DNA of 64,000 nt from Chitinophaga pinensis (GTDB lineage: Bacteria; Bacteroidota; Bacteroidia; Flavobacteriales_D; Crocinitomicaceae), in NCBI GenBank assembly GCA_945902745.1, contig CAMDNE010000001.1, positions 310,001 to 374,000 of the forward strand, given 5' to 3'. Position numbers and translations under genes: made by a program. Positions within the stretch are counted from its first letter, which is position 1; each line of letters opens with the position of its first letter. Below are positions 4,766 to 64,000 of this stretch, piece by piece. The notes below the pieces were generated by a model. It was not told the origin of the DNA and did not search any database. It worked only from the letters and a program-made list of their open reading frames with translations.

Positions 4766-7700
4766 GTGAACATTCAAAAAAATAGAATATTTCTCTTACT
4801 TTTTATCTTTTTTCCGTTTTTATATAGCGCGCAAACAGAGGTAGAAATGAAGGCGCAAGCAGATAAACTGTTCGATTCGGAACAATATCTGAGTGCAACT
4901 CCATTGTATTTACGTTTGTTGTCACTGCAGCCAAGAGAAGTTGCATATAATTATAAATACGGAACATGCCTTTTATATAACTCCAATAATAAACAAGAGG
5001 CAATTAAATATTTATCATTTGCCGTAAACGATCCTGCCATTTCTCCTGATGCGTATTATTTTTTAGGAAGAGCGTTGCATTTAAATTATCAGTTCAACGA
5101 AGCGATAAAACAGTATACAAAATATTTGGAAAAAAGTCCAAATGGAAATAAGGTAAAAGACGCAGAAAGAGAAATTCAAATGTGCCAAAATGGAAAGCGT
5201 TTGATGACAACCATTACCGATATCATTGTTTCTGAGAAAAAAGAAATAACAACAGATAAATTTTTTCGTGTATATGATTTACAAGATATCGGTGGAGATC
5301 TTCTTGTTACAGCAGATTTTCAAACAAAATTAGATAAGAAAAATAACCATATTCCTTTAGTTCATTTTCCTCAAAATGCTTCATTAATCTACTATTCAAG
5401 TTACGGTGACAATGGAAATACTGGAAAAGATATATATGTCAGAAGAAAATTACCTGATGGAACTTGGGGTATGCCTCAGCAAATTCAAGGAAATGTAAAT
5501 ACGGCTTTTGATGAAGATTTCCCATATATGCATCCAGATGGGAATTATTTGTATTTCTCGTCTAAAGGTCACAATTCAATGGGTGGATACGATGTCTTTA
5601 GAAGTAAGTTTGATGTTGACAACAATTCATTTGGTCCGCCCGAGAACATGGATTTTGCCGTTTCATCCCCTGATGATGATCTATTTTATGTTGTCGATTC
5701 TTTAAATAAAAACGCCTATTTTGCCTCAGCTCGACAAAGTGAATTAGGTAAATTATTTGTGTACAAGGTGAATGTTGATAGAGTCCCATTGCAATTAGCA
5801 GTTGTGAAGGGGAATTTCCTCTCTGAAATAGATCCAAAAATTAAGAAAATAAACTTTGAGATAAGAGATTATGCAAATGGTGAAGTCATTGGTAAATTCA
5901 ATTCAAATGATAAAGCTGTGTACTTGATAACCTTTCCTAAAGGAGGGAAATATGAGTACAATATGAAAATTGAGGGAAGTATTCAAGAATTTAAATTCAT
6001 CGTTTCAATTCCATTCATGAAAGAGTTTAAACCTCTTAAGCAAAAAATCATCCATACAATGGAAGAAGGGCGAGAGGTTGTGAAAATTGTTAATTTATTT
6101 GATGAAGAAGTTGATGATCCAGCCGCTGTTTTAGCCGAAGTAATAAAGATGCGTTCAAATTTAAATGTCAATGTTGAAGAATTTGACATGAATGAAGTTG
6201 AAAAAGATAAAATCAATAAAGAAATTTTAGATGATTTAGGACTAGGTGATTTGCTGCTTGTAGAAGTCTCGGATGTGTTAAATAAACAATTGAAAAGAGG
6301 CGCCGAAAACAATAATTTGATTAATAATATTGGGAATAATATTAATAATTTGGTTGTAGAGAATTCAGTTGAATTCATCGCTTTAGAAGAACAGATTAAA
6401 AATAAAGTTGCAGAAGCGAATAAAACTCAAAATCAAGAAAATAAATACATCCTTCTCAAGGAAGCAGAATCCCTTATTCTTAAGCAAGCGGAACTTAAGA
6501 AATACTCAAAGGATTTATTGCATTTGAATGATTCGATTAAAGAAGTACTCTCAAAATCAACTAGTGGTGCTGATCAGCAGAAATTATTGTCGGTTAGTCA
6601 ACAATTTGATCAATTGTACAAATCTGGAAATGAAAAGGAAGCTGTTCAATTAATAGTAGAAAACAAAACTTTTCTTCAAGATATTTTGAAAGATAATTCG
6701 ACCGAATTAATACAGAATTTAGTCGATAAGGTAGTAAAGTATGATGAAGAGATTAGCAGTTTAAAAGGAAAAGTTGACGGTTATAATAAAGATGTTAAAA
6801 CACTTGAAATTGAAATTCAATCGCTTCAAAACGCAATTGGTGCAGCTAAGAAAAAGGATGTTCCAGCGTTAGAGCAAAAAATAGCTGAAAAGCAAGAAGA
6901 AATTAAGCTGATTAAAGAAGAACTAGGTAATCTTCAAAGAATAATCGATAGAAAAAGTCAGGAGAAATTTTTGGTTAATAAACAAATCCAAATTTTACAA
7001 GATGCTATTTCTAATAAATCAATTGCTGTTGTAACGAAAGAAAAAGCTGCAAAAGCATTAGCAGAAACAGAGAAAACTAATTCTAATACATTAACTGCTT
7101 ATGTGAGTCAACAAATTGTTGCGCTTGAAAAGGAGGACCCAACTTTAAAAGAAAGAATTGTTGTTGCATCAGGATTAAAAGCAACTAATATTATTGAAGA
7201 ATACAAAACATCGTCAAAAGGAATTCAAGATGACCCTTCTTTGTCTAAAGAAGATAAAATGTACAAACAACTTTTAAATGATCGAAATACCTATAAAATA
7301 TTGGATAAGCGATTAGCGGAAATTGAAAAATCACTTATTGACAATAAATTCGATGAAAATCTAAATAAAGAAAAGCAAGAAATTATTAATTATCAAAAAG
7401 AGTTGGAAGTATTGATTTCCAATCGTGAAAAACAAGTTGAAGCTTTATTGTCGCAAAATGGAACAGGTGATCGTGATGAATTAATTCAAACGATACAACC
7501 CGGTTATGAAGCTGAAAGGAAATCAATTGAAGCGAATGTTAATTTAAATGAAACGGAAAAGCTTCAAGAGTTGAATAATGAAGATGAAAAACTTGTAGCT
7601 GCCATTGACAAGGAACTTAAAGTCGTTTCGACTGAATTAGGGAAAAATCCTAGCGATAAAACGCTTCAAAACAAAAAACAAGCTTTGATTCAAATCAAGC

Positions 7701-10700
7701 AAAATACGAATGCGATAATTACACAACGCAACACCGAAATAGATGCTGCTACGAATACGAACGAAACACCGAATATTGAGAGAATTGTTGCGCAAATAGA
7801 TCCAACTATCACATCTCGAAAAGAACAAATTTCAGCAAATAATTCCCTTTCAGAAAAGGAGAAATTACAAGCGTTAAACAAGGAAGACGAGAAATTTCTG
7901 GTTGCTGTTGACAAAGAATTAAAAACGGTTTCAGCGCAATTAGCTAAGAATCCAGCGGATAAGACGTTACAAGAAAAACAACAAGCGTTAACTGAAGTTA
8001 AAGCAACAACGCAGGAATCAATTTCAGAAAGAAACACGGAATTAATTGCTAAAACGAATACGAACGAAACACCGAATGTGAAGGAAATTGTTGCGCAAAT
8101 AGATCCAACTATCACATCTCGAAAAGAACAAATTTCAGCAAATAATTCCCTTTCAGAAAAGGAGAAATTACAAGCGTTAAACAAGGAAGACGAGAAATTC
8201 TTGGTTGCTGTTGACAAAGAATTAAAAACGGTTTCAGAGCAATTAGCGAAGAATCCAGCGGATAAGACGTTACAAGGAAAACAACAAGCGTTGTCTGAAA
8301 TTAAAGCAACAACGCAGGAATCAATTTCAGAAAGAAATACGGAATTAATTGCTACAACGAATACGAACGAAACACCTAATGTTAAGGAAATTGTTGCGCA
8401 ATTAGATCCAACGTATGATGACAAAATTGAAGAAGTAAAAGCCGACAATGATTTAACCAATGAGGAGCAACTTAAAGCAATCAATGAAATTGATAAAACG
8501 TTGATTGAGAAAATTGATGAAGAATTAAATCAAGTCAATGAAAAATTGGATGCAGAGCCTAGCAATGAGGTTTTAATTAACAACAGAACAGCTTTGGTTG
8601 AGTTGAAAGCAACAAAAGAAAACGACATTAAGGATAGAGAAGAGCAAATTTCGAGTGCTTCAACAAGTGAATCTTCGAGTGAAGTAACCAATGCATTAAT
8701 TGAGAAAATTCAACCTGGATTTGCGAAAGAAGTTTCAACCATAAATAATAACACTGAACTAAGTTCAGATGAGAAAATGTCGCAACTTCAGTTAAAAGAT
8801 CAAAAGTTGATGACAGCAATTGATGCTAAATTAGTTGCACTAGAGAAACAATTGGTGAAACAACCGAATAATGAATCTTTGCAAGAAGAAAAGAAGAAAT
8901 TGTTAGAATTGAAATCGTTGATTGAGTCACGAATGGAAGAACGTGTTCAACTGATGGAAAGCAAGTCGAATGTTGAATTAACGGCTGAAAGTCTCGCAGA
9001 ACAAAAGAATATTCTTCGCAATAAAATTGACCCATCGTATATTTCTAAAAGAGAAAGCATTGCAAAAAGCAACGATTCTGACTTGAAAAAGAAAAATGCT
9101 GAATTAAAATTAGAACAACAGTTATTAGAAAAAATTCAAGCAGAAACAACAATTGCTCAAAAAGTAGTGGATAAAGATCCGTTTAATGTTGCTGCTAAAT
9201 CCAAATTGACCGTTTTGGCTGAATTGAAAAAAGAAACGCAGAACAATATTAATAGCATCAATGGAGATGTCGTTGCACTTAAAAATGGTCAACCAATCAA
9301 CTCTGTTACTGAGCAAGAAAAACAGGCTACAATCAACGATTTATCTGAAGAATATGTTGCTAACGTAACGGAAATTGAAAATTCAACGGAAATTTCTGAA
9401 AAAGAAAAGGCACAACAATTAATTGACGAAGAAAAAGCACTGTTGAATGCTGTTGAAGAGAAGAAACAAGATGTTGAAGGACAATTAGTAAAAGATCCTG
9501 GCAACCAAACGTTGTTAAAGGAACAAGCAGTTTTAGCGCAAATCGAAAAAGATATTCAAGAAAAAGTAGCTCAAAATGAAGCTGTTGTAAATTCTATTGA
9601 ACCTGCTGTTTTTGTTTCCAAACAAGAGAAAGAGGAAATCATTAATCGCTTAAATGAAACTTATTTCAGTGATGTGAAAGCTATTGAGCAAAGTAATCAA
9701 ACTGCTTTGGAAAAACTCGAACAGATACAATTACTAGATCAAAAATTATTAGGAAAAGTTTACGACCAGCTTGAAAATATTGAGAATCAATTGATGGAAG
9801 ATCCTTCTTCTATTGAATTGAAAAAAGAACAAGAAATTTTAAATACATTGAGTGAAGAACTTGATAAGAAAATTGAAAATCGTCAAATTGAGATTGCCCA
9901 AAAAACTGTCAATTCAACTATTACGAATGAAGTAAAAGAAGCAGCAATTAATAAAATTGATCCTTCTTATTTCAAGAATATCGAAGCTATTAATCAATTG
10001 GATAGTAATGAATCTGAAAAAAATCAAAAACTCCTGAATGAAGAAATTTCTCTTTTATCTAAAGTAAACAATGAGTTGTTCGCCATAGAAGAGGCGTTAA
10101 TGAACAATCCAGATGATCAAGTGAAAATTGAAGAAAGAAAAAAATTGGAAGCAATTCGTTCTGATTTACAAGCTTCAATTGAACAATTGAACGAACAAAA
10201 AAATCAGTTATCTTCTGAAACAACCGTTACAGCGCAACAAAAAATAGCTAAAATAGAGGAGATAGACGCTTCTTATATTTCTCAAAAGGAATCTATCGAA
10301 GGAAATAATAATCTTTCAATTAAAGAAAAGGCGCAACAATTATTGAGACTAGAAAATGATTTCTTGGATAAAGCAACAACAGAGAAAATCAAGATTCAAG
10401 AACAATTGAATCAATTGCCAAATAATAATTTATTGAAACAGGAATTGGCTGTTCTAGAAGCAATTCTATTTGAAACGGAAAAGAGTATTTCAGCGCATAA
10501 AAATGTATTGAACAATACAAATGATTCAGTTGATAATAAAATTGATAAAGAACAAATTGTTGACGACATTTTACCAGATTACACTTCCAGAAAAGAGGAA
10601 TTGGCCAACTCAAAAATGGTTGAAAATATCAAAATTGTTGAGCAAATCAAATTAGAAAATGAATTGTTGACAAAACTTCAATTGGAAGAAAAGAGTTTGA

Positions 10701-13700
10701 ATAAACTGTTAGACAAGAATCCAACGGACGAAAAAAATCAACAGAAATTAGCAGCTGTAAAAGATTTGATTGTTAGTCAGCAAGTGGCGATTTCTGAATT
10801 AACCGCTCGAAATGAGGAGTTGAATGCGCAAATTAAAGCAACTGAAATTATTTCGAAAGCGGATGTAAACTATGGAACTGATATCGAAAAACTAAAAGCC
10901 TCAACATCTGATACGAAGAATTCTGATTTAGCTGAACGAGAAGTCATTCATCAAGAAAGAATTGCAACTCAAATAGCCGCGAATGAAAAGATTCTTGCTA
11001 AAAAGAATAATCCAGAAATACTTGCTGCAAATGAAGTGTTAAAAAAAGAAGTGATTCTGAGTAAAGAAAATGAGCAGAATTATAGAGCTGGAAATGAAGA
11101 TTTGGTTGAAAATAACGTCAATCAAACAGCATTTGTAAATAACTTGAGAGAAGATTTATTGCAAGGAAATAGCGCTGCAATGACGGAAGAATTTAAAACG
11201 ATCGAGGAGCTCAAACAACAGGATGCCGTTCTTGCAAACTATGAAAAAGCACTTTCAACTCAGATTTCTGAAAAGTCAGCGGAATTAGAAATTGATTCTG
11301 AAAATGAAGCGTTGAAAGAAGAAGTAAGTTGGATGAAAGAAGAATTGACAAACGTTCAAGAAAGACGTCGTCAATGGAAAATTTCAATTGGTGAATTGGA
11401 GAAAATTGCCAATGAAGATCCAACGAATGAAGGGAATGAATTCAATGATCCGTTATTAACTGAATTGACTCAAAAGGAGAATAAATTACAAAGTGATTTA
11501 ACGAATCCGGAATTGACACAAAAAGAAAAGCAAGTCATTCAAAAAGAAATAAATCAAGTTCAAAAAGAGCAAACGACGCAAGAAAATAAATTGATTACAA
11601 CTGAGATTGCAAACAAAGAAAAAGTAATTGAAGCGCAAACCAAGGAATTGAAAGCTGGTTCGACATTAAATACTGAAACAAAATTAACTTCTGGAACGGC
11701 CATTGCGCAACAAGAATCTTTGTCAAAAGAAGTTCAAAGCATCGTTAAGGAAGCACAAGAAACGAAAAGTGTAGAAGAAAAGAATTACTTGTTGAATACG
11801 GCTTTGGAAAAGGAAAAACAAGCGAACGCTATTATAAAGGAGGCAATAATTGAAAATAAAATCCAGCAATTAGAAGAAGAGAACAACATCACTTCGTTGG
11901 AAACGCAAGTTACGTTAGAAGAAAAGAAACGTCGTTTTTCAATTCAAGTTGGCGAGCTTACAAGAATAATCAAGGAATTGGATACTGAAATTTCAAGTGC
12001 TAAAGGAAAAGAATTACTGGCTTTGAAAGAACAACGAGCGGATAAAGTGCAACAAAGAACGTTGGTTCAACAACAATTAGAAGCTATTGATACGCGCCTT
12101 GCTCAATATGAAAAAACAGCATCAACGACTGATCCTGAAGCAATGAAAAATACAGTTTCTTATGTTGAAGAACAGGAAATTGCTGCATCAGAGGAATACA
12201 AGAATTATGAGGACAAGGCAAGACCAGCATTGGAAGTTGAAAAACAAATCGCTAATTTAGATGCTCAATTGAATGAGGTGAAATCAATTACGAAAGAATT
12301 GATTAAGAATAGTATTGATAATCCATCTGAAGAAAATCAAGCGAATCTTCAATTGAATATTGAAAAAATCAAACAAATGGAAGCAGATAAACAGACGCTT
12401 CTAAGTGAGTTAAAAGTGAAACAACAAATTGCAAAGGAAGCTTTGCCAGCGAATACAGAAGAAGCAATGAAAATGCAAAATCTTGTGGAAAGAGGAATTT
12501 TACCAATCAAACGATTGGCTGTCATTGCGGCGTTGGTTCCACTTCCAGCGAATGGGTTGGAGATTAAGGCTGAAGGAACAAATACGTATTCTGCTGCAAA
12601 ACCAATTCCTGTTGACGTTAAAAATCCTACTGGTTTAGTTTACCGTGTTCAAGTTGGTGCATTTGCGAAACCTATTCCTCAAGATTTATTCAAAGAATTC
12701 AATCCAGTATCTGGTGAAAAATTGAACAATGGTGTCACTCGTTACATGGCTGGTTATTTCAACAACAGTAAGAAAGTAATTGAGGTGAGGGATCAAATCA
12801 AAGGATTAGGATATGCGGATGCTTTTGCTGTAGCTTATTGCGATGGAAAACGAATTTCATTGGCTGAAGCACGAATTTTAGAAGCGAATGGTGAATGTGT
12901 TGCAAAAGGTGAGAATGAATTAATTCTTGAGATGGCTGCAAATACTGCTATCACGATGGGATTGGAAGACACTTTAAAGAAAGTCAAAGTTGACGAGTTG
13001 TCTTATAACAAAGCTCCAGGAGCGGTGAATGCTGAACCAATTGAAAAGCATTTAGGGTTGTTCTTTACTGTTCAAATTGGTGTTTACAACAAACCTGTGA
13101 ACGCAAATACGGTGAATAACATCAGTCCTTTGATGACAGTAAGATTGCCAAATGGTCAAATCCGTTATTCTACAGGAATGTTTACTTCAATTGATAATGC
13201 ACGACCTAAGAAACTTGAGGTAATTGATAAAGGCGTGAAAGATGCATTTATCACAGCTTATTATAAAGCAGAGCGGATTACCTTGGCTGAAGCTCAAAAA
13301 TTATTAGATGGTAACGGAGACGCTATTTTAGAGCAGAATATAGTACTTCCAGTTGTCTTTGAGCCAGTTAATCCGATTAAAGTAATTATTCCAGACGAAC
13401 CGGTTATTGAAAACAAAATTGAGCGTGTTCAAATTGTCACTAAAAAGACCTTTGATGAATTTCCTCGTGAAGTATTGAATCGTTATAATAGTCACGGAAG
13501 CTTCTATTATGATGAAACAGATAAACGTGTGAAATCAGCAATCGCGAATTCAAAAGATGAATTACCACAAGTTTATAATTTCAAAGATGATGTTGATACG
13601 CTTTATATAATGGAAGCGCTGGACGAGTCTTCAACTATTATATCAGTGAAATTTGAAAGCAAAAGTTTACAGGGTGATTTCATCGATTGGCTATTACGTT

Positions 13701-13867
13701 ACAATTATAGAAGAGAATTTATCCAATCTGAAGAAGTTATAGAATTACGGATTTATAGAATTCCAGATGTAAAAATGGAAGAATTACAATTGAAATTAGA
13801 ATTATTTGGTTTAACTTGGTCTAAGGTTACTGAGACAGAACAAGAACTTGAATTAGAAGAAAAATAA
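4766..13867 (+). CDS. giant envelope protein: TPR + PD40 repeats, long coiled-coil repeat region, two SPOR domains
   Basis: This 3033-residue protein appears to start at a GTG (4766), which is directly followed by a signal peptide ending near SAQT; no in-frame ATG precedes it. Residues about 20-150 look like TPR repeats and about 190-290 like PD40/WD40-like propeller blades (YYSS, DIYV, GYDVFRSKF), as in PorE-type proteins. There is no OmpA domain. Residues about 890-2130 form roughly twelve units of about 100 residues rich in Lys, Glu, Gln and Leu, each starting near an I-D-P-S/T-Y-like motif; this should be extended coiled coil. More coiled coil follows to about 2500. Two SPOR-like domains (YRVQVGAF near 2625, FTVQIGVYN near 2767) suggest peptidoglycan binding. 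The last 150 residues form an unassigned domain. clpS follows after 1 base. A role as an envelope spacer or scaffold is inference. Confidence 0.9.
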   Translation: MNIQKNRIFLLLFIFFPFLYSAQTEVEMKAQADKLFDSEQYLSATPLYLRLLSLQPREVAYNYKYGTCLLYNSNNKQEAIKYLSFAVNDPAISPDAYYFLGRALHLNYQFNEAIKQYTKYLEKSPNGNKVKDAEREIQMCQNGKRLMTTITDIIVSEKKEITTDKFFRVYDLQDIGGDLLVTADFQTKLDKKNNHIPLVHFPQNASLIYYSSYGDNGNTGKDIYVRRKLPDGTWGMPQQIQGNVNTAFDEDFPYMHPDGNYLYFSSKGHNSMGGYDVFRSKFDVDNNSFGPPENMDFAVSSPDDDLFYVVDSLNKNAYFASARQSELGKLFVYKVNVDRVPLQLAVVKGNFLSEIDPKIKKINFEIRDYANGEVIGKFNSNDKAVYLITFPKGGKYEYNMKIEGSIQEFKFIVSIPFMKEFKPLKQKIIHTMEEGREVVKIVNLFDEEVDDPAAVLAEVIKMRSNLNVNVEEFDMNEVEKDKINKEILDDLGLGDLLLVEVSDVLNKQLKRGAENNNLINNIGNNINNLVVENSVEFIALEEQIKNKVAEANKTQNQENKYILLKEAESLILKQAELKKYSKDLLHLNDSIKEVLSKSTSGADQQKLLSVSQQFDQLYKSGNEKEAVQLIVENKTFLQDILKDNSTELIQNLVDKVVKYDEEISSLKGKVDGYNKDVKTLEIEIQSLQNAIGAAKKKDVPALEQKIAEKQEEIKLIKEELGNLQRIIDRKSQEKFLVNKQIQILQDAISNKSIAVVTKEKAAKALAETEKTNSNTLTAYVSQQIVALEKEDPTLKERIVVASGLKATNIIEEYKTSSKGIQDDPSLSKEDKMYKQLLNDRNTYKILDKRLAEIEKSLIDNKFDENLNKEKQEIINYQKELEVLISNREKQVEALLSQNGTGDRDELIQTIQPGYEAERKSIEANVNLNETEKLQELNNEDEKLVAAIDKELKVVSTELGKNPSDKTLQNKKQALIQIKQNTNAIITQRNTEIDAATNTNETPNIERIVAQIDPTITSRKEQISANNSLSEKEKLQALNKEDEKFLVAVDKELKTVSAQLAKNPADKTLQEKQQALTEVKATTQESISERNTELIAKTNTNETPNVKEIVAQIDPTITSRKEQISANNSLSEKEKLQALNKEDEKFLVAVDKELKTVSEQLAKNPADKTLQGKQQALSEIKATTQESISERNTELIATTNTNETPNVKEIVAQLDPTYDDKIEEVKADNDLTNEEQLKAINEIDKTLIEKIDEELNQVNEKLDAEPSNEVLINNRTALVELKATKENDIKDREEQISSASTSESSSEVTNALIEKIQPGFAKEVSTINNNTELSSDEKMSQLQLKDQKLMTAIDAKLVALEKQLVKQPNNESLQEEKKKLLELKSLIESRMEERVQLMESKSNVELTAESLAEQKNILRNKIDPSYISKRESIAKSNDSDLKKKNAELKLEQQLLEKIQAETTIAQKVVDKDPFNVAAKSKLTVLAELKKETQNNINSINGDVVALKNGQPINSVTEQEKQATINDLSEEYVANVTEIENSTEISEKEKAQQLIDEEKALLNAVEEKKQDVEGQLVKDPGNQTLLKEQAVLAQIEKDIQEKVAQNEAVVNSIEPAVFVSKQEKEEIINRLNETYFSDVKAIEQSNQTALEKLEQIQLLDQKLLGKVYDQLENIENQLMEDPSSIELKKEQEILNTLSEELDKKIENRQIEIAQKTVNSTITNEVKEAAINKIDPSYFKNIEAINQLDSNESEKNQKLLNEEISLLSKVNNELFAIEEALMNNPDDQVKIEERKKLEAIRSDLQASIEQLNEQKNQLSSETTVTAQQKIAKIEEIDASYISQKESIEGNNNLSIKEKAQQLLRLENDFLDKATTEKIKIQEQLNQLPNNNLLKQELAVLEAILFETEKSISAHKNVLNNTNDSVDNKIDKEQIVDDILPDYTSRKEELANSKMVENIKIVEQIKLENELLTKLQLEEKSLNKLLDKNPTDEKNQQKLAAVKDLIVSQQVAISELTARNEELNAQIKATEIISKADVNYGTDIEKLKASTSDTKNSDLAEREVIHQERIATQIAANEKILAKKNNPEILAANEVLKKEVILSKENEQNYRAGNEDLVENNVNQTAFVNNLREDLLQGNSAAMTEEFKTIEELKQQDAVLANYEKALSTQISEKSAELEIDSENEALKEEVSWMKEELTNVQERRRQWKISIGELEKIANEDPTNEGNEFNDPLLTELTQKENKLQSDLTNPELTQKEKQVIQKEINQVQKEQTTQENKLITTEIANKEKVIEAQTKELKAGSTLNTETKLTSGTAIAQQESLSKEVQSIVKEAQETKSVEEKNYLLNTALEKEKQANAIIKEAIIENKIQQLEEENNITSLETQVTLEEKKRRFSIQVGELTRIIKELDTEISSAKGKELLALKEQRADKVQQRTLVQQQLEAIDTRLAQYEKTASTTDPEAMKNTVSYVEEQEIAASEEYKNYEDKARPALEVEKQIANLDAQLNEVKSITKELIKNSIDNPSEENQANLQLNIEKIKQMEADKQTLLSELKVKQQIAKEALPANTEEAMKMQNLVERGILPIKRLAVIAALVPLPANGLEIKAEGTNTYSAAKPIPVDVKNPTGLVYRVQVGAFAKPIPQDLFKEFNPVSGEKLNNGVTRYMAGYFNNSKKVIEVRDQIKGLGYADAFAVAYCDGKRISLAEARILEANGECVAKGENELILEMAANTAITMGLEDTLKKVKVDELSYNKAPGAVNAEPIEKHLGLFFTVQIGVYNKPVNANTVNNISPLMTVRLPNGQIRYSTGMFTSIDNARPKKLEVIDKGVKDAFITAYYKAERITLAEAQKLLDGNGDAILEQNIVLPVVFEPVNPIKVIIPDEPVIENKIERVQIVTKKTFDEFPREVLNRYNSHGSFYYDETDKRVKSAIANSKDELPQVYNFKDDVDTLYIMEALDESSTIISVKFESKSLQGDFIDWLLRYNYRREFIQSEEVIELRIYRIPDVKMEELQLKLELFGLTWSKVTETEQELELEEK
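7751..8397 (+). repeat. near-identical 303-bp tandem repeat inside the giant coiled-coil gene
   Basis: The string acgaatacgaacgaaacacc begins at 7751, 8054 and (with one change) 8357, an exact spacing of 303 bp or 101 codons. Two complete units and the start of a third are almost identical at DNA level, while flanking units of the same protein repeat (from about 7448 and on to about 11150) have diverged. Recent duplication or gene conversion is the likely cause. Confidence 0.92.
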
Positions 13868-60592: not shown

Positions 60593-63136
60593 ATGAAAAA
60601 TTCAGATAACATGTTGAAGTGGCAAGAGGCCGATAAGAAAATCGAAAGAGTACTAGCAATACTTGGAGGTCACTATGGTATTGTAAATGATAACGAGTAT
60701 ATTATAACTCTATTCTTTTTACTTATTCGTAAGGATGAATTAGATAATGCTGCTGAATACATGGATCATAATGACTTTAAAGTTTTTATGAGTGACATGA
60801 TTGAAGCTGAAATGGACAAGCGCGAGATTTCGGGTACAAGAAGACAATATTGGGAAGAGATCATGACCAATGCCATGCCAATTGTCGAGAAAGTGTTTAA
60901 TGATAAAATTCCGCAAATTTTTCAGACAATTCGTGAGATCGATCAAAAAATCATCGACGAAGATTTTACTTCATTTTTCGATCATGTACTGTTTTTCATT
61001 GGTGAAAAATTTGACAAAAGTGGAAAGATTCACCAATTACCAAAAGAGGTTGTTGAGTTAGTTGAACGTGTTGCTTTTGCAGAATTTGATGAGAATGATA
61101 TTCCTCTTGTTTATAATCCTTACTCAAGGTGTGCTGATTTCGGAGTCTTTTCTAGGAGTTATATGTTTAACGGCCAGGAATCTGAAAAAATGAGCTACTT
61201 CATCGGGATTATGCGAATTTTGGCGCATGATGCTGAAGAAACAACTGCATTACATAACACAAATCCGAAAGTAAATTGGGATGAACAAGAATATGATCTT
61301 ATTCTTTCTTACCCTCCAATTGTAAAATTTAATAACTCTTCGTTTGGTTTAACCAATACTGTGAATAGTCCTGATCATTTTCTTCTAGAGAATGGCATGA
61401 AGAGTTTAAATGTAAAAGGTAAAATGATTCTGCTATTGCCGAATAGTTTTCTTTATGCTTTAGGCTATGAAGCCAAATTGAAAAAGTCTTTGCTCGAGTC
61501 AGATTTTATCGATACCGTCGTAAAGCTTCCTGAGAATTTGTTGAGCAGTACAGCATTGTCATTAAGTTTAGTGGTTTTCTCCAATTATAAAGATGAATTT
61601 AACAAAGGAAAAGTTAGGTTTATCGATGCTTCGAATTGTAAAAAAAGAGATGAAAGAAGACATAGAAATACACTTACTAAGGAAATATATGAATTAATCG
61701 AACAAGAAAATGACACTGATCTAGTTCGTAAAGTTCAGAATACAGTTATTATTGAAAATGATTGTATTTTATTGCCCAACCGTTATTTTGTGAATCAGTA
61801 TGACGGGGTAGCATTAAAAGAATTTACACAGCAAATTAGAACTGTAAATCAAGCGGATACGCAAGGCAAATATATTAGAGTAAGGAATCTATCTGATAAT
61901 TTTTCAGATGCTCGCCTGGATTTAAGTAGTGTGAATGAAGAAGAAATTCCTTCTAGGAGTATCGAAGTAAGAGAATCTGTGCTTTTACTCTCTACTCGAT
62001 GGAAAAATTTCAAAGCTACTTATTTTGAATATTCTGGAGAACCTATTTTCGTGATGCCGGATATCGCAGTTCTGAAAGTGGATGAGTCCATTATGAATAT
62101 TGACTATTTACTTCATGAGCTATTTTCGAATTATGTTCAAGAGCAATATGAGGCGTTCCTTACAGGAGTAACTATACCTTATATTCGAAAGAACGATTTA
62201 ATGTCGATCAAAGTTAAGGCACTACCTTTAGCCGAACAAGAGCTAATTGTTGATTATATATCCGGTGCATTAGAGCCACTTGAGTTAAAGTTAGATGAAA
62301 AAAATAGTTCTGAATTAATCAAGGAAAAGGAACTTTTTCAAGAAATGGCTTCACTGAAGCATACGCTTGGTTCCCCGAGGCAAAACATTCTTTCAGGAGC
62401 TACTTTATTGTTGAAATTTATGGAAGGAAATCATAAATCAATTGATGCATTAAAGGATCACTTCAATGAGATTTATGGCAAGAAAATAACAGATATTCTT
62501 GAATCCATTAAAAAGGATGTAAACTTTATTAGTCAAGTTCTAGAAAGAGGTGAAAACGGACTTATTCTGGAAGAGTTTCCACTAGAATTTATTAGTTTAC
62601 AAGATCTCTACCATTATCTAGATGAAATTGATGACACCAGATATAAGTTTAAAATAAGCGTCATTTTTGCAATCATTCCAAACCTTAAGGATTTTGTAAC
62701 GGATACACATCCGATTGAAGGTGATGCTGGACGAATAATTGAGGAAACAGGAATCAATGGAAATAGGGTATTACTTAGAACCTTATTTGATAACATTCTA
62801 GAGAATGCTAACAAGCATGGTTTTGATGAAAAGGTTGATTCGAATGAAGTGAAAATATTAATAATTCCAATGCCAACTATAGGGGCTTGTAATATTAAGG
62901 TATGGAATAATGGCAAGCCCTTTCCAAAGGGCTATTCGAAAGAGAAATTCATAACAAAGTATTCAACAAAAGATATTGGGACGGGAACCGGTTTGGGCGG
63001 GTACGACATCAATAGAATAGTTCAGTATTTTGGGGGTAGCTGGGTTTTTTCGCATGAAATGGAAGGGGAAGATCAGAGCAATAATCTTGATGACTTTCCA
63101 GTGCAATACGACATAAGTTTCCCAATAGAATTGTAA
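60593..63136 (+). CDS. fusion of degenerate N6-adenine methyltransferase, HsdS-like recognition half and histidine kinase
   Basis: The protein has 847 residues. Residues 1-150 are helical, like the HsdM N terminus. Residues about 150-370 resemble the HsdM/N6-MTase core, including F-N-G-Q-E near 198, but the SAM loop reads Y-S-R-C-A-D-F-G-V-F and motif IV reads L-S-Y-P-P-I instead of N-P-P-F. Residues about 430-560 look like one HsdS half (I-P-Y-I-R-K-N-D-L, L-A-E-Q-E-L-I-V). A linker leads to H590 in S-L-K-H-T-L-G-S, then the HATPase: D-N-I-L-E-N-A-N-K-H-G near 732 and D-I-G-T-G-T-G-L-G-G near 794. It is cytoplasmic. The response regulator starts 11 bases later. A DNA-state sensor is the best reading. 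Confidence 0.85.
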   Translation: MKNSDNMLKWQEADKKIERVLAILGGHYGIVNDNEYIITLFFLLIRKDELDNAAEYMDHNDFKVFMSDMIEAEMDKREISGTRRQYWEEIMTNAMPIVEKVFNDKIPQIFQTIREIDQKIIDEDFTSFFDHVLFFIGEKFDKSGKIHQLPKEVVELVERVAFAEFDENDIPLVYNPYSRCADFGVFSRSYMFNGQESEKMSYFIGIMRILAHDAEETTALHNTNPKVNWDEQEYDLILSYPPIVKFNNSSFGLTNTVNSPDHFLLENGMKSLNVKGKMILLLPNSFLYALGYEAKLKKSLLESDFIDTVVKLPENLLSSTALSLSLVVFSNYKDEFNKGKVRFIDASNCKKRDERRHRNTLTKEIYELIEQENDTDLVRKVQNTVIIENDCILLPNRYFVNQYDGVALKEFTQQIRTVNQADTQGKYIRVRNLSDNFSDARLDLSSVNEEEIPSRSIEVRESVLLLSTRWKNFKATYFEYSGEPIFVMPDIAVLKVDESIMNIDYLLHELFSNYVQEQYEAFLTGVTIPYIRKNDLMSIKVKALPLAEQELIVDYISGALEPLELKLDEKNSSELIKEKELFQEMASLKHTLGSPRQNILSGATLLLKFMEGNHKSIDALKDHFNEIYGKKITDILESIKKDVNFISQVLERGENGLILEEFPLEFISLQDLYHYLDEIDDTRYKFKISVIFAIIPNLKDFVTDTHPIEGDAGRIIEETGINGNRVLLRTLFDNILENANKHGFDEKVDSNEVKILIIPMPTIGACNIKVWNNGKPFPKGYSKEKFITKYSTKDIGTGTGLGGYDINRIVQYFGGSWVFSHEMEGEDQSNNLDDFPVQYDISFPIEL

Positions 63137-63147
63137 ATTAACTTATT

Positions 63148-64000
63148 ATGAATAAAATGATTAAGGTATTATGGTTTGAAGATGAGTATGAGAAAATGGA
63201 CAACTTTCTCATTCAAGCTCGAGGTGAAAACCTAGAGCTTGTTCCGTTTCGTTCTGCGGAAGAAGGAATAGAAGAGTTGCAAAAAAATTATTCGCATTAT
63301 GATGCTGTAATTATGGATGCCAAGTTCTTTTTGTCTAGAGAGCATGAAGCTGGCTCTGAAGAGTTATCTGCATTGGCAAAGACAAAAGCAGCATTAGATG
63401 CTCTTTCCTCAAAGAAAAAGTTTGAAGTTTTCGTTTTCACAGGGCAAGCAAAATTATTCCAAGATTCTTCGTTCGACATGTTTGTGCCAAAGTATTACAA
63501 GAAGGGTGTTGAAGAAGACGTACATAATCTAATTGCTGACATTAAAAAATCAGCGAATAATCAAATCGATACACAAATCCGTCACAAGTTTCAAAGAGTA
63601 TTTGATGTATGTAGTGAAAAATACATTGGTGAAAAGGCAGGCCACGACCTACTTGATATTTTAAAAAATCAAGATTCAATGGATAGTAAAAAGTACTTAA
63701 ATGTTATTCGAAATATCATTGAAGACTTGTTTAAAGCATTTCACAAGTTCGAATTGTTGCCATCTGAGTTTATATCAGGAACTATTGATTTAAATCCAAC
63801 CTGTCGTTTTTTAATCGGAACCGCTGAAAATGGTTTTAAATTAGATGAAGAAGCTAGGTTACCCAAAATAATAGGTCATAACCTTTGGAGCTTGCTTAAT
63901 CACTCTCAAACTGGTTCACATCGAAGTCATATAGATGAACATATTAATACATTGGCTTCAACATTTTTGTTTAATGCACTGACCTTCAAGCTTTTGGATG
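63148..64000 (+). CDS. response regulator with unknown C-terminal domain, 3' end missing
   Basis: The frame is open from ATG 63148 to the window end, at least 284 residues. The receiver domain (1-125) has the acidic pair in L-W-F-E-D-E, phosphoacceptor D in V-I-M-D-A-K, T in F-V-F-T-G-Q and K in V-P-K-Y-Y-K-K. The 3-residue spacing and F-T-G rather than L-T-A mark a divergent receiver. Residues 130-284 are helical with no DNA-binding motif I recognise, so it may be an effector. Its start lies 11 bases after the kinase stop. Confidence 0.88.
   Translation, partial: MNKMIKVLWFEDEYEKMDNFLIQARGENLELVPFRSAEEGIEELQKNYSHYDAVIMDAKFFLSREHEAGSEELSALAKTKAALDALSSKKKFEVFVFTGQAKLFQDSSFDMFVPKYYKKGVEEDVHNLIADIKKSANNQIDTQIRHKFQRVFDVCSEKYIGEKAGHDLLDILKNQDSMDSKKYLNVIRNIIEDLFKAFHKFELLPSEFISGTIDLNPTCRFLIGTAENGFKLDEEARLPKIIGHNLWSLLNHSQTGSHRSHIDEHINTLASTFLFNALTFKLLD

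Follow-up and report, generated by a model that had tools for sequence, protein, structure and literature searches.

The window, a stretch of 64,000 nucleotides, carries on its + strand an ORF with an ATG start (60593..63136) whose 847-residue product unites an HsdM-like methyltransferase with a single HsdS-like recognition domain and a histidine kinase of soluble type, and which we describe as a fusion sensor kinase on the basis of its translation, its Pfam matches, its predicted fold and a family of 34 aligned members. The chain opens with an HsdM-like helical region (aa 1-125, 60593..60967, +), recognised from the helices of the model and from HsdM alignments, in which solved HsdM chains begin to align to the fusion model at about residue 5-14. 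It is followed by a gamma-type N6-methyltransferase domain (aa 126-402, 60968..61798, +), which contains the Pfam match to N6_Mtase (191-399, E 1.4e-20), and by a single HsdS-type target recognition domain, or TRD (aa 403-545, 61799..62227, +), marked by its conservation, by a match to Methylase_S that lies barely above the curated cut-off (465-557, E 1.9e-4) and by the PADLOC type I specificity models (Specificity_I; aa 416-557, E 5.8e-11). Next come a long helix (aa 546-610, 62228..62422, +), present in the AlphaFold2 model and predicted to be an HsdS-type dimerisation helix that continues into the first helix of the kinase, and the ATP-binding catalytic domain of the kinase (aa 691-847, 62663..63133, +), identified by HATPase_c (724-822, E 2.7e-7), by N738 and N772, and by a profile match to solved histidine kinases.

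The AlphaFold2 model of the fusion, computed with 23 sequences as input, has a mean pLDDT of 78.9 and contains the methyltransferase, one recognition domain, the helix 546-610 and the kinase domain, the middle of the helix being of low confidence (about 561-600, with blocks from 561 to 590). Structural comparison aligned the model to type I HsdM chains over ~370 residues with Z scores of 27-33, which together with the N6_Mtase match identifies an HsdM fold, and a profile search of solved structures matched the three parts of the protein to HsdM, to HsdS and to histidine kinases. A type I HsdS has two TRDs and two dimerisation helices, whereas the fusion has only one of each. The best Foldseek match was 7eew_A (E 4.2e-21), the intact, single-chain type I methyltransferase from Vibrio vulnificus YJ016, which aligns to model residues 14-591 with a Z score of 32.5 and an rmsd of 22 A that reflects differing domain placement. 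Both proteins carry a methyltransferase, one TRD and a long helix in one chain; 7eew differs in having 610 modelled residues and no kinase, while the copy in our window (hereafter the home copy) lacks the catalytic Asn. In more general terms, the N-terminal two thirds of the fusion belong to the fold and sequence family of type I HsdM/HsdS, from which the protein is set apart by its kinase, its half HsdS, its unconserved catalytic motif and its coexistence with genuine hsdM and hsdS genes. The three-part architecture had been proposed in a preliminary description made from the sequence alone; ORF, Pfam, PADLOC models and predicted fold all confirm it, and the structure prediction that this description had called for places both the methyltransferase and the TRD fold in the model.

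A chance fusion or a misassembly was considered and is ruled out, since N6_Mtase and HATPase_c occur together in all 23 aligned members scanned (Methylase_S in 15 of the 23) and the identical architecture recurs in at least 30 distinct relatives, this being the number that the 34 aligned sequences represent once genomes found twice are allowed for.

The kinase part has the hallmarks of a sensor kinase. The predicted phospho-accepting histidine, H590 (62360..62362, +), is present in 34/34 aligned sequences, and N738, N772, G774, G800 and G802 in 33/33, the single missing member being cut by a contig end. The histidine lies in a DHp helix, a helical region precedes the ATPase domain in the model, and the profile match to solved kinases extends from the DHp to the catalytic domain (e.g. 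561-811 against 4jas_A). The claim that H590, the N box and the G-box glycines are intact thus holds, with the addition that the Asp of the G1 box is replaced by Asn (N772) in all 33 members, making this a trait of the family.

Eleven bases downstream of the fusion gene starts a gene for a response regulator of 380 aa (63148..64000, continuing to G000:C1:374290, +), truncated by the end of the window at 64000 and composed of a receiver, a helical middle domain and an OB-like C-terminus. No Pfam or PADLOC family matches the home regulator; the model of a close relative, 45% identical to it over the part inside the window, matches receiver domains with a Z score of ~14. The receiver residues D15, D60 and K120 (numbering of the L053 member), which correspond to D12, D57 and K119 at home, are invariant among the 21 regulators aligned, giving the family the Asp/Asp pair, the phospho-Asp and the Lys of a receiver, with D57 (63316..63318, +) as the predicted phospho-accepting aspartate. 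Pfam recognised an S1/CSD-like OB domain at the C-terminus of 4/21 members and no helix-turn-helix in any of the 21. The structure search was dominated by receiver-domain matches and barely probed the middle domain. A profile-profile comparison of this domain with the DUF4145 region of HsdR put an Arg/Glu pair and a His in register (2% probability, E 0.02), and no Pfam match to HEPN/DUF4145 was found there in the 21 members. As a side observation, many of the partner HsdR proteins (home, L047-L070) start with a DUF4145-type helical domain, for which the home HsdR has a Pfam match, and the faint Arg/Glu and Ser-His pattern of the regulator's middle domain may, though this is unproven, resemble that domain.

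Beyond the regulator, and on the same strand, lies a complete type I R-M system in the order hsdR, a NERD-like/TBP-TOTE protein, a TPR protein, a 496-residue protein, hsdM and two tandem hsdS genes. The hsdR gene matches the PADLOC model REase_I with an E value of 8e-212 (L003:7247-10489), and the genuine hsdM carries NPPF. Since the fusion gene sits in a complete type I R-M locus, the link to defence is stronger than had been supposed. With the window ending at 64000, neither the full regulator nor the R-M genes had been visible to the preliminary description. Promoter-like sites upstream occur at chance level, and the Rfam scan gave no family match. Several neighbours deserve mention in their own right. 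Within the R-M locus, the segment L003:10492-14944 (G000:C1:378492-382944) encodes the TBP-TOTE protein, of 1019 aa and with weak NERD and PDC-M16A similarity, as well as the TPR protein, which resembles a TPR/cold-shock-like PADLOC model. The two hsdS genes are both complete (G000:C1:385935-388578, L140) and have short direct repeats between them, which would permit a specificity switch. Just past the R-M locus (G000:C1:391444-398178, L004:3444-10178), three genes match the PADLOC candidate PDC-M27A/B/C (E 1e-73 to 1e-237); a GIY-like gene precedes them, and a similar set lies beside a Marinobacter R-M locus (L106).

The gene pair and its surroundings recur across the 34 loci examined. Wherever the gene after the fusion could be seen, in 32 loci, it is the regulator; the gaps, measured in 22, run from -79 to +52 nt, and most of these pairs overlap or nearly do so. 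Both hsdM and hsdS accompany this cassette in 25 of the 31 loci with enough sequence, the six others being G053, G171, G289, L065, L066 and L071, and hsdR was seen in 21. A WYL gene was found within the fetched flank in 28/34 loci, usually immediately before the fusion; the only one found near the home locus is ~30 kb downstream. The arrangement has its plain form on a Myroides plasmid, with WYL, fusion, regulator, hsdM, hsdS, two other genes and hsdR. Between their hsdS and hsdR genes, the loci L035, L039 and L041 have pairs of genes that to the eye resemble DUF262.

Full-length fusions number 11 in 395 Bacteroidota genomes, with the home genome counted, and 3 on Myroides plasmids; the 80 loci of named genomes contributed 24 more, from Flavobacteriaceae, Chitinophagaceae, Cytophagales, Bacteroidales and others. 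A search for homologues and their neighbours, as proposed earlier, thus recovered a fusion family with R-M genes adjoining in most loci. All relatives belong to the Bacteroidota except one unverified "phage" record from human faeces (Bacteriophage sp., MT835483.1 8382-27398, L133), which carries WYL, fusion, regulator, hsdM, hsdS and hsdR and is probably a bacterial contig. Among the matches listed from 398 genomes of Marinobacter's phylum, none extends to the kinase part, a result that speaks for that phylum alone, and viral contigs yielded only R-M loci with genuine HsdM.

We then turned to the catalytic motifs of the methyltransferase. An active HsdM carries motif IV as (N/D)PP(F/Y/W); the home copy instead reads YPPI within SYPPI (aa 239-243, 61307..61321, +), as the preliminary description had correctly seen. 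Across the family, the motif IV Asn is kept in 16/34 members, 15 of which show NPP(F/Y/W/L), and is otherwise replaced by Thr, Ser, Cys, Tyr, Asp, Phe and others. On a family tree built without motif IV itself, its state changes at least 10 times, indicating that the Asn was lost repeatedly, and the home copy falls among relatives that mostly retain NPPF/Y. The NPPF or NPPY of the partner HsdM is intact in 18/18 proteins checked. Given that H590 is present in every member and the motif IV Asn in fewer than half of them, the alignment indicates that kinase signalling is under constraint in this family and methylation is not. General catalytic death of the family was considered and is ruled out by the 16 members with the Asn, which might still methylate. 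The earlier suggestion that methylation has been lost is therefore probable for the home copy, where the Asn is absent, and does not extend to the family as a rule.

The SAM loop of the home copy reads NPYSRCADFG (aa 175-184, 61115..61144, +), and most relatives in the 34-member alignment have NPFAGLASFG. The cofactor-side residues are well kept, namely the motif II acidic residue E196 (Glu in 32/34), G179 (31/34) and P176 (31/34), and in the home copy the glycine of the loop is replaced by Arg (G179R). An NPFAG loop does not by itself point to decay, because a clade of genuine HsdM also carries it, and of the altered SAM loop noted at the outset only the G179R region appears unusual, the rest corresponding to the loop that is normal for the family. 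With the motif II Glu in 32/34 members and NPFAG as the family norm, cofactor binding by the fusion family may persist. The clade of genuine-looking HsdM (L072-L126) is of some interest in itself: its members, of ~520 aa, have NPFAG instead of DPACGSGG, adjoin hsdS and hsdR, and span many phyla, among them Prevotella-like bacteria, Patescibacteria, Coriobacteria and Idiomarina.

Given that the fusion stands beside genuine R-M genes, we compared pairwise identity matrices from 22 loci by Mantel tests for coevolution. Methyltransferase, recognition domain, kinase and regulator co-vary with each other (rho 0.48-0.72, p 0.001), as do the partner HsdM and HsdS (rho 0.60, p 0.001), while no co-variation was found between the cassette and the partner HsdM/HsdS (rho 0.00-0.16, p 0.08-0.43). 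Clustering at 40% identity divides the partner HsdM proteins into seven groups. A cassette that co-varies internally, does not co-vary with the R-M core and is found with seven HsdM clusters behaves as a movable module that appears to serve many type I systems. The recognition domain is among the best conserved domains of the fusion (mean pairwise identity 0.35), and its K474 is present in 34/34 members. The candidate idea that the fused TRD shares the target site of the operon's HsdS was unsupported (Mantel rho 0.15, p 0.147), the TRD being no closer to the HsdS of its own operon than to those of others (own mean rank 9.6 of 22). Without such closeness or co-variation, the fused TRD is unlikely to read the partner R-M system's own target.

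Sequence and structure prediction show the domain layout, the key residues of kinase and receiver, the pairing of the two genes, their place in an R-M operon and their modular evolution; from these we infer a mechanism whose steps are dimerisation, DNA binding, phosphotransfer, signal and output. This explanation, in which fusion and regulator form a cytoplasmic two-component system that reads DNA and accompanies type I R-M loci, strikes us as evenly balanced between right and wrong; a bolder version, in which the retired methyltransferase/TRD part detects unmodified DNA or DNA-mimicking phage proteins and the phosphorelay switches the restriction enzyme or a back-up defence, is plausible and somewhat less probable. 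The input part would be a repurposed type I methyltransferase, whose HsdM and half-HsdS portions probably dimerise by analogy with half-S type I methyltransferases, and the dimer would bind DNA with the assistance of SAM. Methyl transfer would be optional, and lost in the home copy. Either the binding itself or the condition of the occupied site would then alter the helix 546-610 and turn the autophosphorylation of H590 on or off. The dimer helices of kinase DHp domains are parallel. HsdS-type pairs are joined by antiparallel dimerisation helices (PMC3874165), so that a single helix cannot serve both dimer modes at once. This tells against the proposal, in a stretch where the model is of low confidence; a switch between the antiparallel and the parallel mode would be an attractive way to couple DNA binding to the kinase. 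Also weighing against the proposal are the lack of resemblance between the fused TRD and its operon's HsdS, the 16 members that retain the catalytic Asn and the six loci without hsdM and hsdS nearby. H590 would hand its phosphate on to D57 of the regulator. The effector part of the regulator is helical and OB-like, and its target is probably the R-M complex or nucleic acid: as there is no DNA-binding HTH, interaction with protein or nucleic acid is a likelier output than promoter control. The likeliest purpose would be to tune the neighbouring type I R-M system, or some linked effector, once the cell encounters foreign or unmodified DNA. Taken together, these features suggest that the cell reads DNA via a retired restriction enzyme and relays the result as a phosphate signal.

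Other readings of the same data have to be weighed against this DNA-reading phosphorelay. It is tempting to regard the HsdM and half-HsdS part as a decoy, or guard, which mimics an R-M enzyme so that DNA-mimic anti-restriction proteins of the Ocr or ArdA type bind to it and trigger, through the kinase, a back-up response. Such inhibitors hit type I enzymes regardless of specificity, and a decoy accounts well for a TRD that does not track the partner HsdS; dispensable catalysis and one cassette serving several HsdM classes would also be explained. The structure 7eew, which gave the best match to the model, contains bound Ocr, and Ocr is stated to trigger other defence systems, namely PARIS, Gabija and Zorya II (PMC12255303). 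Yet the invariant K474 and the largely kept SAM loop suit true DNA reading at least equally, and a dedicated killing effector was not recognised in all loci; we consider a decoy improbable, albeit the foremost of these alternatives. Ranked next, and likewise improbable, is a regulatory methyltransferase, active or formerly so, whose kinase monitors the modification of the cell's own DNA, for instance in a new host or after damage, and holds HsdR back as long as self DNA lacks modification, thereby serving R-M dosage or restriction alleviation. The 16 members with the motif IV Asn fit this reading, as does the usual place of the cassette upstream of hsdMSR with a WYL regulator, and type I systems are known to need restriction alleviation, achieved through HsdR proteolysis (cited in PMC12255303). 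However, the Asn is absent from the home copy and 17 others, and the fused TRD, which shows no co-variation with the partner HsdS, cannot be a plain reporter of that system's own sites.

We consider two further readings less likely than these. A degenerate methyltransferase that binds SAM or SAH might report the state of the cofactor, for example when a phage destroys SAM, and phage enzymes that degrade SAM exist. The better preservation of the cofactor-side residues than of the Asn would agree with such a sensor, but the recognition domain, among the best conserved of the protein, would be superfluous, and Arg takes the place of the loop glycine in the home copy; we regard this reading as quite unlikely. 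The least likely by our reckoning, and a very remote one, is that the GHKL domain is an ATP-driven, MORC-like clamp or remodeller, to which the receiver-like gene would contribute a structural partner rather than a phosphate acceptor. GHKL proteins at R-M loci have been described (PMC2292703, PMC8011034), and the G1 box has Asn for Asp. Against it stand the invariant H590 ahead of HATPase_c, as in sensor kinases, the profile matches to solved histidine kinases from the DHp to the catalytic domain, and the receiver Asp and Lys kept in every partner regulator.

As for known systems, Detocs (DtcA/DtcB/DtcC) embodies two-component logic in phage defence and had been mentioned, beside type I restriction enzymes, as known separately. 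Detocs is not known to carry a methyltransferase or TRD input, and the regulator described here has no recognised killing domain; among the PADLOC entries listed, none was named as a Detocs model. A nearer precedent is HEF_HK (PF19191)/Response_reg_2 (PF19192), a two-component-like pair that is enriched near R-M systems and has been proposed to control them (PMC8011034). There, too, a soluble kinase-like gene adjoins a receiver-like gene beside R-M genes; in contrast to the fusion, the HEF_HK kinase has HATPase_c_3 and no HsdM/HsdS, and the pair accompanies mainly type II C5-cytosine methylases (PMC8011034). Neither Pfam family was found in 23 fusions (E up to 0.01) or 21 regulators (E up to 1), and PF19192 had no match in the home genome, the control genomes likewise giving none. 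CapK/CapS and WYL proteins are regulators ahead of immune operons, where a GHKL kinase with its substrate, or WYL, controls expression (PMC13373217). CapK differs in phosphorylating a Ser of a STAS-winged-HTH repressor (PMC13373217), whereas the present pair has His and Asp and no DNA-binding HTH. With the models of MADS, a system that consists of the eight-gene mad1-8 operon, the fusion protein alone scored E 1.6e-10 for mad5 and 6.9e-8 for mad2, about equal to generic type I models. No description of a methyltransferase-TRD-kinase fusion was found in the literature searched, which was largely open-access, in agreement with the initial impression that the combination had not been described. 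We read the pair as a two-component system of type I R-M loci in Bacteroidota in which an R-M enzyme provides the sensor, and HEF_HK/Response_reg_2 is its closest published counterpart.

Little is known about how R-M systems are regulated or how attacks on them are sensed, and the regulators described are mostly transcription factors. A conserved and exchangeable sensor-kinase cassette, derived from an R-M enzyme and sitting in the R-M operon, would join DNA recognition to a phosphorelay and offers a concrete, testable candidate; if the proposal is true, it would be a two-component system whose ligand is the modification state of DNA or an anti-restriction attack. Annotations as "N-6 DNA methylase", for example on the Myroides plasmids, may conceal proteins that are not functionally methylases. 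Elsewhere in the window, an ORF of 3033 residues (4766-13867) contains near-identical repeats of ~100 residues in its middle.
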